Shown here in pieces: positions 10,160 to 49,253 of a DNA stretch of 64,000 bases. The DNA comes from Anaerobaca lacustris (GTDB lineage: Bacteria; Planctomycetota; Phycisphaerae; Sedimentisphaerales; Anaerobacaceae), in assembly GCF_030012215.1 (NCBI RefSeq), contig NZ_JASCXX010000008.1:124001-188000 (forward strand), in the 5' to 3' direction. The position numbers were made by a program, and so were the translations under genes. The notes under the pieces were generated by a model, which made no database searches, was not told the origin of the DNA, and saw only the letters and a program-made list of their open reading frames with translations. Every line of letters begins with the position of its first letter. Position 1 is the first letter of the stretch.

Positions 10160-11014
10160 TTACGGGCGGCGGTACTTGCGGTCCATCAGGAGGATGACCT
10201 TGTCGTGGATTTCGGGGGGCAGGGCCTTCTTGAGCATCTTGCGGACCTCGCCCATCGCCGTGCGCTGGGTCAGGTGGGAGAGGATGACGTGCTCGTTTTG
10301 CAGGCGGCCGAGAAGGTCGGCCAGCTCGCTGACGTGCATGTGCCGGCCGGCGTTGGCCCGGCTGACGTGCTCGCCCTCATAGAACGTACACTCGGCGATC
10401 AGGATCTTGCTGTGGACGATATAGTCGAGCTGGGCGAAATCGACGTACGAGGTGTCGCCGAGATAGCTGACCAGCGGGATCTCCAGCGTCCTGTCGATGG
10501 GGACGCCCTGCTTCTTGATCTCGACGAGTTGCGGGCCGGAAAGGCCGAGGTATTCGCTCTTGAGCTTCTTTCGCTTCTCTAGGACGGTGAAGCCGACCGA
10601 GCCGGGACTGTGCCGGGTGGGGAAGGCCCGGGCGAAGAGGTTGGGCTTGACCGCGTATTCGTCGCCGGGCCGGACGCCAACGAGCTGGGCGGGGATGCGG
10701 TTGCCGTCGAGCCGGGCCCACGAATCGAGGATCTCCTGCATCGTGCGGATCAGGCCGGCCGGGGCCAGGATCGTGCCGGGCGACATCCCGCAGAAGTTCC
10801 GCTGGCTGAGGTAGTAGGCGAAGCCGGCCGAGTGGTCCATGTGGCCGTGCGTCAGCAGGACGTGGTTGATGGCGATAAACTGGTCCGGGGCCTTGCCCAC
10901 GTCGAAGCAGACGTCGAGCTGCGGTACCGCGACCACCGTCTCCTCGCCGGCCACCGAGTAGCCGACGACGTCGAGATCGCCCAGGGGAATCTTGGACAGG
11001 TTGTGACTGGACAT
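10160..11014 (-). CDS. Metallo-beta-lactamase-fold hydrolase, RNase Z-like
   Basis: 284 aa. It contains the zinc motif LLTHGHMDHSAGFAYYLS (HxHxDH). Later metal ligands are in PTRHSPGSVGF, YLGDTSYVDF (Asp) and ILSHLTQRT. RNase Z-type sequences have the same order of motifs and process tRNA 3' ends, but the long exosite arm is not obvious. It could therefore act on RNA or on a small-molecule phosphodiester or ester. Single gene. It starts at 11014, next to an AT-rich repeat. Confidence 0.75.
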   Translation of the reverse strand: MSSHNLSKIPLGDLDVVGYSVAGEETVVAVPQLDVCFDVGKAPDQFIAINHVLLTHGHMDHSAGFAYYLSQRNFCGMSPGTILAPAGLIRTMQEILDSWARLDGNRIPAQLVGVRPGDEYAVKPNLFARAFPTRHSPGSVGFTVLEKRKKLKSEYLGLSGPQLVEIKKQGVPIDRTLEIPLVSYLGDTSYVDFAQLDYIVHSKILIAECTFYEGEHVSRANAGRHMHVSELADLLGRLQNEHVILSHLTQRTAMGEVRKMLKKALPPEIHDKVILLMDRKYRRP

Positions 11015-11017
11015 TTG

Positions 11018-11122
11018 GATTTACGATTTACGATTTCTGATTTACGATTGAACTGTGATCCGCATGGGCTAAAGCCCATCCTACCGGCCAAATGGTAAAT
11101 CATAATTTGTAAATCGTAAATC
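11018..11122. repeat. AT-rich inverted repeat enclosing a REP family A copy
   Basis: The left arm at 11018-11050 (GATTTACGATTTCTGATTTA...) and the right arm at 11090-11122 (...TTTGTAAATCGTAAATC) are imperfect inverted copies. A minus-strand family A REP lies between them at 11062-11084. It fills the gap between divergent genes. Confidence 0.75.
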
Positions 11123-11130
11123 AAAAAACC

Positions 11131-11934
11131 GTGCCCGACAAACGAGAACATCGCGGCCCGCATCCGTCCGATGCGGCGTTGTTCGCACCCGACAGGCTCG
11201 CGAGCCTGCGAGAGGCGCTGGTGGATTTTTCGCTGCTGCGGAGCAAGGGCTATGCCGACAAGAGCGCGCTGAAGCTCGTCGGGGACCGGTTCGCCCTCAC
11301 GCAGAGACAGCGTCTGGCGGTGATACGCTCCGCCTGCTCCGACCAGCAGAGGCAATCCAGGCTCTCGCGTCGCGTCCAGATCGGCGAGTTGGGCGGCCGG
11401 ACGCTGGCCATCGACGGGTACAACCTGCTGATTACCATCGAGGCAGCCCTCAGCGGTGGGCTGATCTTTCGCGGTCGTGACGGCTGCTTCCGCGACCTGG
11501 CCAGCATCCACGGCACCTACCGCAGGGTGGAAGAAACGATCCCCGCCCTCGAATTGACCGGCGAATTCCTGTCCGAGATCGGCGTCGTCGGCGCCCTGTG
11601 GCTGCTCGACAGCCCCGTCTCCAACAGCGGCCGGCTCAAGACCCTGATTGCCGACCTGGCCCGAGAGCACCACTGGCCCTGGCACGTCCGCCTGTCGCTG
11701 AACCCCGACGCCGAGCTGCGCGGGCCATTCACCTTCTCCAAACAGGTAGGATGGGCTTCAGCCCATGCGGCTGATACAGCATGGGCCAAAGCCCATCCTA
11801 CAGAACTGCCCCCCATCGTCGTCACCACAGACAGCGTCATCCTCGACGCCTGCGGCGCATGGACCAACCTCGCCGCCGAGATCATCACGCACTGCCTGCC
11901 CGAAACCCCCGTCATCGACCTGGCCCGTTCGTAG
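11131..11934 (+). CDS. DUF434 domain protein interrupted in frame by a REP pair
   Basis: 267 aa from GTG 11131 with no clear ribosome site. The N-terminal DUF434 block is LLRSKGYADKSALKLVGDRF ... LTQRQRLAVIRSACSDQQ. The following conserved domain has RTLAIDGYNLLITIEAALSG and LWLLDSPVSNSGRLKTLI, and ends VVTTDSVILDACG. The IDGYN and LLDSPVSNSG segments suggest a nuclease-like Rossmann fold, but function is unknown. Codons 206-224 (VGWASAHAADTAWAKAHPT) are the translation of an inverted REP pair at 11746-11801 and do not look like native family sequence. The frame is kept. The stop TAG is part of another GTAG repeat at 11931. Confidence 0.78.
   Translation: MPDKREHRGPHPSDAALFAPDRLASLREALVDFSLLRSKGYADKSALKLVGDRFALTQRQRLAVIRSACSDQQRQSRLSRRVQIGELGGRTLAIDGYNLLITIEAALSGGLIFRGRDGCFRDLASIHGTYRRVEETIPALELTGEFLSEIGVVGALWLLDSPVSNSGRLKTLIADLAREHHWPWHVRLSLNPDAELRGPFTFSKQVGWASAHAADTAWAKAHPTELPPIVVTTDSVILDACGAWTNLAAEIITHCLPETPVIDLARS
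11746..11801. repeat. REPIN (two inverted REP family A copies) inside a coding sequence
   Basis: GTAGGATGGGCTTCAGCCC at the left and its reverse complement ending CATCCTAC at the right, separated by a short GGCTGATACAG spacer; 56 bp in total. It lies wholly inside the DUF434 gene and adds about 19 codons without a stop or frame change. Confidence 0.88.
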
Positions 11935-40740: not shown

Positions 40741-40980
40741 GGCCACAGGCTGCGGGCCGTAGGCCGGAGGGATCACGCTTCTACGCTTCTACGCATCCCA
40801 GTTGCCAGTTCCCAGTTGCCGGTTCTCAGTTGTCAGTTGGCAGTTTACGCATCCCGCGCGACGCACGACGCACGACGCAGGCCGTAGGCTATAGGCTGGA
40901 GGCCAAAGGCCAAGCTTCTACGCTTCTACCCTTCTACCCTTCTACGCATCTACGGGTCACGAGACACGAGCGAAGCCTGT

Positions 40981-49120: not shown

Positions 49121-49253
49121 TTGGTTTTCCCTGCGTCCCTTCGGTGAGCCGCGACTCGAAGGCGGGACGCCTTCGACACGGAGCGACCAAGCCGGCCGCG
49201 ACACGCCTGACAATACGCCCGGCAACCGACGGACGCAAGAGAAAAGATGGACC

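Follow-up and report, generated by a model that had tools for sequence, protein, structure and literature searches.

A GTAG-type REPIN read in frame within a DUF434/DUF5616 gene of Anaerobaca lacustris predates the split from the nearest species

The DUF434/DUF5616 gene and its 56-nt insert

Here, we present an analysis of a gene for a DUF434/DUF5616 protein and the palindromic repeat within it, which lie in a 64,000-nucleotide stretch of the Anaerobaca lacustris genome (the window). Genomes are designated by number where they have to be told apart; this genome is G000, and that of the nearest species, Phycisphaerales bacterium Planc_01, is G005. The locus contains the following features:

11063..11084, minus strand: single REP at the apex of a longer palindrome, 46 nt upstream of the gene; shared with G005
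11131..11934, plus strand: gene for a DUF434-DUF5616 protein of 267 aa, GTG start (list of open reading frames; Pfam; matches in 70 of 89 family genomes)
11725..11745, plus strand: probably what is left, on the 5' side, of an older loop insert (repeat type, CAGTTGACAGT), read as PFTFSKQ (PLTVPQ in G005), from alignment with the loops of G002, G103, G107, and G109
11746..11801, no strand assigned: 56-nt in-frame REPIN, an inverted REP pair (sequence; pair layout; genome family; hairpin; G005 copy)
11746..11767, plus strand: left REP GTAGGATGGGCTTCAGCCCATG, exact consensus
11768..11779, no strand assigned: spacer CGGCTGATACAG, which resembles those of the other 56-nt REPINs in this genus
11780..11801, minus strand: right REP, one mismatch to the consensus; the minus strand reads GTAGGATGGGCTTTGGCCCATG
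11802..11814, plus strand: 3' flank AGAACTGCCCCCC, probably what is left of this older insert on the 3' side

The product of the open reading frame matches both Pfam domains above the gathering scores, i.e., DUF5616 (residues 86-249; E 3.7e-46) and DUF434 (residues 25-79; E 1.7e-15). The initial annotation placed the repeat inside a DUF434 coding sequence; this holds for the gene as a whole, but the insert sits in the DUF5616 portion of the protein and not in the DUF434 portion. Outside the insert, dN is 0.066 and dS is 0.265 between G000 and G005 (dN/dS ~0.25), indicating purifying selection on the gene. In the AlphaFold2 model of the protein (mean pLDDT, 89.6; pTM, 0.89), the stretch encoded by the REPIN is disordered with a pLDDT of ~52. 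Four acidic residues (D95, D160, D193, and D234) are invariant in an alignment of 43 sequences and lie at or just past the C-terminal ends of strands in the model. Using VIA-align, the best match to the model was a PIN/FEN-like fold (7mxx; Z 8.6 over 133 residues, rmsd 3.7), and rows 1-38 of the results were all FEN/PIN-like. Foldseek against the PDB gave no significant match (best E 0.043), and the best match in a profile search was a flap endonuclease at an E of 0.73. The resemblance to FEN/PIN-like proteins, with a VIA-align Z of ~8, is only a lead.

The REPIN reads GTAGGATGGGCTTCAGCCCATG / CGGCTGATACAG / CATGGGCCAAAGCCCATCCTAC (22 + 12 + 22 nt), starting with the GTAG of the first REP and ending with the CTAC of the inverted second REP, so that the GTAG tag lies at the foot of the imperfect palindrome. 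Based on computed folding, the 56-mer as single-stranded DNA would form one hairpin (-23.6 kcal/mol; z -8.3). It is read as VGWASAHAADTAWAKAHPT, ~19 residues within the single open frame 11131-11934. Because only one of the three frames on each strand of the 56-mer is free of stop codons, openness in the frame of the DUF434/DUF5616 gene was not guaranteed. Judged by its sequence, the element is confirmed as a complete REPIN of the GTAG type that is read in frame, as the initial annotation had proposed from the inverted pair and its reading as about 19 codons.

The REP family and its candidate mobilizer

The REP core ATGGGCTNNAGCCCAT occurs five times in the window with at most two mismatches (0.20 expected) and 48 times exactly in the genome, while the reversed control sequence does not occur at all; a search of the window with Rfam at gathering scores gave no match. 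With a few mismatches allowed, the genome contains 54 REP loci, of which seven are inverted pairs and the remainder single REPs, several of which retain part of the REPIN spacer. Four of the seven pairs are exactly 56 nt long and have related spacers, and sister species also contain 56-nt and 63-nt forms. We assigned coding context by fetching the loci, applying a home-made hexamer gene caller, and then inspecting the open reading frames, making the in-gene counts approximate; several apparent in-gene REPs were due to over-extended starts of open reading frames. On this basis, about five or six of the 54 loci are coding compared with ~42 expected at a coding density of 78% in the fetched regions, and the bias of the family toward intergenic DNA is strong. 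The description of in-gene copies as rare is therefore fitting for this genome, but such copies have been documented before (PMC3733652).

The genome contains one full-length gene for a RAYT-like Y1 transposase of 230 aa (C17:115734-116423). The protein scores 54.8 bits against Pfam Y1_Tnp (cut-off, 23) and 62 bits against NCBIfam NF047646 (cut-off, 80), so the RAYT label itself does not rise above the curated NCBIfam cut-off. One REP with a single mismatch lies just upstream of this gene; in G005 and other relatives, the surroundings of the RAYT genes yielded no recognizable REP. Within L107:38-1897, close to a contig end, the gene has a phage-type integrase gene and a tRNA-like sequence as neighbors. 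G000 and G005, both of which have a full-length, stop-free RAYT gene, each contain 45 exact REP copies; the numbers are 11, 9, 6, and 3 in G001, G002, G003, and G004, respectively, in which RAYT was not found or is interrupted by a stop codon. That the number of REPs tracks the presence of RAYT across these six genomes, several of which are incomplete, is supportive of RAYT as the agent of REPIN copying but not proof. Similarly, E. coli genomes with RAYT hold more REPINs than those without (Park et al. 2021, PMC8049555).

The initial annotation suggested looking for a flanking duplication; none of at least three bases was found at the copy in the DUF434/DUF5616 gene, and shorter ones are beyond judging. 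This observation would fit an origin in which another REPIN was copied into the gene by recombination, gene conversion, or template switching rather than by RAYT, as would the short repeat already contained in the loop and the small change beyond the 56 nt that is needed to keep the frame (see below). However, the element is complete from end to end over 56 nt, from GTAG to CTAC, and target duplication is not expected from Y1 transposition of the IS200/IS605 kind. We consider this origin unlikely.

The single REP upstream of the gene occupies the apex of a long palindrome (window 11014-11125) built from GATTTACGATTT-type repeats, and in G002 the apex of the palindrome upstream of the gene holds a different small palindrome. 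Both REPs at the locus suggested that REPs favor the apices of palindromes; as strong flanking inverted arms were present at only one of 53 loci, we rejected this as a rule.

History of the insertion in orthologues

In an alignment that included orthologues from within and outside the family, the loop is short in most sequences (e.g., ELKETDRIVVSTDS) and contains no insert, which bears out the earlier proposal that the repeat was inserted. By contrast, G005 contains the REPIN at the identical place in the same gene, and its arms still pair in both genomes. The two copies differ at 3 of 56 nt, one of which changes an amino acid, and the third positions of the gene differ at 46 of 244. Because G005 has the same REPIN and purifying selection acts on the gene, we conclude that the insertion predates the split of the two species and is not recent. 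The recent mobility read from this copy in the initial annotation is therefore not upheld: the same copy occupies the same site in G005 at a gene dS of 0.27, and G000 and G005 have 14 of 19 comparable REP loci in common. The comparison covered ~2.0 of the 5.7 Mb of G005, leaving 35 of the 54 loci without a counterpart, and the shared fraction is consistent with slow turnover.

Alternatively, G000 and G005, in both of which the REP family is abundant, might each have acquired a REPIN independently at the same base. The copies have the same position and orientation, and their spacers differ at only 1 of 12 nt; moreover, the neighboring REP at 11063 is shared and the locus identity is 92.5%, making this scenario very improbable. 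Even less credible is an assembly artefact or a dead gene: the genomes are metagenome-assembled, but two separate assemblies agree, dN/dS is ~0.25, and the residues that are invariant in the 43-sequence alignment are retained.

The same loop is occupied by a different insert of 14-21 aa in G002, G103, G107, and G109, which is made of CAGTTGACAGTT-type repeats, and this motif is abundant in G002 and G107. These inserts of similar length and different sequence agree only in part with the native insert, unrelated to the repeat, that the initial annotation named as a refutation: they are repeat-derived themselves, and most orthologues are short-looped. Because the sequences on either side of the REPIN in G005 give their best alignment with the loop of G002, the REPIN most likely landed in such an older insert and appears nested in its remains. 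If precisely these 56 nt are removed, the loop is no longer in frame; thus, a small extra change came with the insertion, and the frame now depends on the REPIN. The loop flanks have diverged, and the exact empty site is consequently beyond reconstruction. An array of CAGTTGNCAGTT heptamer-like repeats of the same type as the older loop insert is also present elsewhere in the window (40797-40845).

Based on the identity, structure, and frame of the element, its presence or absence in relatives, the purifying selection on the gene, and the modeled loop, we consider it likely that this is a GTAG-type, RAYT-dependent REPIN inserted before the split of the two species and tolerated as a near-neutral loop extension. 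According to this model, the REPIN is a nonautonomous hairpin element, presumably copied by the RAYT transposase of the genome, which would have landed before the split of G000 and G005 in an already enlarged, disordered loop between a helix and a strand. The protein would have kept working because the 56-mer was open in frame and the loop faces away from the conserved acids, and the insert would have stayed as a near-neutral extension of 19 residues. A different view is that the insert is selected for a function, with the hairpin regulating the mRNA or the Ala/Trp/His peptide adding a binding surface. Retention of the insert in two species, arms that pair in both, and a reading frame that now depends on the insert would fit this view. 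However, the divergence of the insert (3/56) is not clearly below that of the third positions of the gene (46/244), the insert is modeled as disordered, and most orthologues do without it, and we regard a selected function as improbable.

Repeat-derived segments in this and other genes

Among 75 distinct orthologues, we identified 13 inserts of at least six residues, all of which are at residues 153, 183, or 198. In the AlphaFold2 model, these three sites are helix-to-strand loops, flanked by helix 136-149 and strand 154-160, helix 166-179 and strand 184-189, and helix 192-197 and strand 229-231, respectively. Because the conserved acids are at the opposite, C-terminal ends of the strands, the order of these elements, rather than a measured distance, suggests that the inserts and the probable active site are on opposite sides of the protein. 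At residue 153, the inserts in G029, G036, G102, and G106 are built on palindromic repeats, with the core GAGGGCGTCCCGCC in G029, G036, and G106, while G107 has another G-rich sequence at this site; in related genera, a second loop is occupied by a further palindromic repeat. The CGTC-type motif of the residue 153 inserts is enriched in the host genomes G029, G102, and G106 but not in G036. The third site, after residue 183, has 16-17 extra residues in L134 and L264. Altogether, this shows that, among relatives, several unrelated repeat families have decorated one gene in frame.

Other in-gene copies, which the initial annotation proposed to look for, were found in several genes of the genome. 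A squalene-hopene-cyclase-like gene (C14:124549) contains a single REP in frame that is also present in G005 and G001 but not in G002. In a GH9-GH95 fusion (C19:91964), a REP lies exactly in the linker; it is also present in G005 and degraded in G001 and G002, while in G003 the GH95 half is a separate gene, and a repeat may have been involved in the fusion. A third REP, common to G000 and G005, encodes the C-terminal tail of an OPT-family transporter (L116:3480-3501). Finally, in a GH123-like gene, part of the signal peptide is encoded by a REPIN in G001 (C447), while G000 (C4:167061) has half a REP, the right half having been replaced by another repeat, GGGCGACGCATGCGTCGCCCCTAC; neither form is present in G005, G002, G003, or G004. 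Some of these in-gene REPs are older than the insertion in the DUF434/DUF5616 gene. With respect to GTAG as a target site, G005 has a native GTAGG at the matching place of the GH123 gene; the other polymorphic loci are too rearranged to bear on this.

In-gene repeats of this sort are already known, and the REPIN described here is of a known kind because both intragenic GTAG REPs and the palindromic elements of Rickettsia set precedents. Di Nocera et al. (2013, PMC3733652) described GTAG REPs, including those in the PVC superphylum, as forming head-to-head dimers, being linked to RAYT, and occurring inside genes, and proposed that in-gene REPs are possibly neutral in linkers or loops. Like the intragenic GTAG REPs of that study (e.g., in Opitutus terrae), the element analyzed here is a GTAG palindrome in a head-to-head dimer, in frame, in the PVC superphylum, and RAYT-associated; unlike those stressed there, which are in DNA replication and repair genes, it lies in a DUF434 gene. 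The REPINs of Pseudomonas and E. coli (PMC3116915, PMC8049555) similarly consist of two inverted REPs forming a hairpin, with singlets as decayed halves and a higher copy number in the presence of RAYT, but they differ in sequence and were described in extragenic space. The Rickettsia elements cited in PMC3733652 (RPE-4, RPE-6, and RPE-1) are also palindromes that are tolerated in frame in many genes; however, RPE-4 and RPE-6 are assigned to the CGTC type, a type with no known dedicated transposase, and their host is intracellular.

Beyond PMC3733652, our analysis adds orthologue evidence for age and several repeat families in one gene. The orthologues provide a before-and-after series for an in-gene palindromic insertion, leading from the empty loop via the older repeat insert to the REPIN. 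Together with the decoration of a single gene by several repeat families, invariably in loops that point away from the conserved residues, this makes testable the idea that bacterial hairpin repeats supply new protein segments. Of further interest are the linkers and the signal peptide encoded by REPs in other genes of the genus. One could speculate further that short palindromic repeats are a regular source of new protein parts in this planctomycete lineage, as loops, an inter-enzyme linker, and a signal peptide, and that the DUF434/DUF5616 protein is a preferred acceptor because it acts on hairpin DNA itself, possibly in a nuclease-like manner; we hold this to be a long shot. For annotators, peptides of the type VGWA(S/L)AHA...AWA(K/E)AHPT should be taken as a warning, as they are translated repeats. 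Elsewhere in the window, a perfect palindrome, TCGAAGGCGGGACGCCTTCGA, at 49156-49176 resembles the CGTC-type repeats that related genera have in the second loop of the DUF434 protein.
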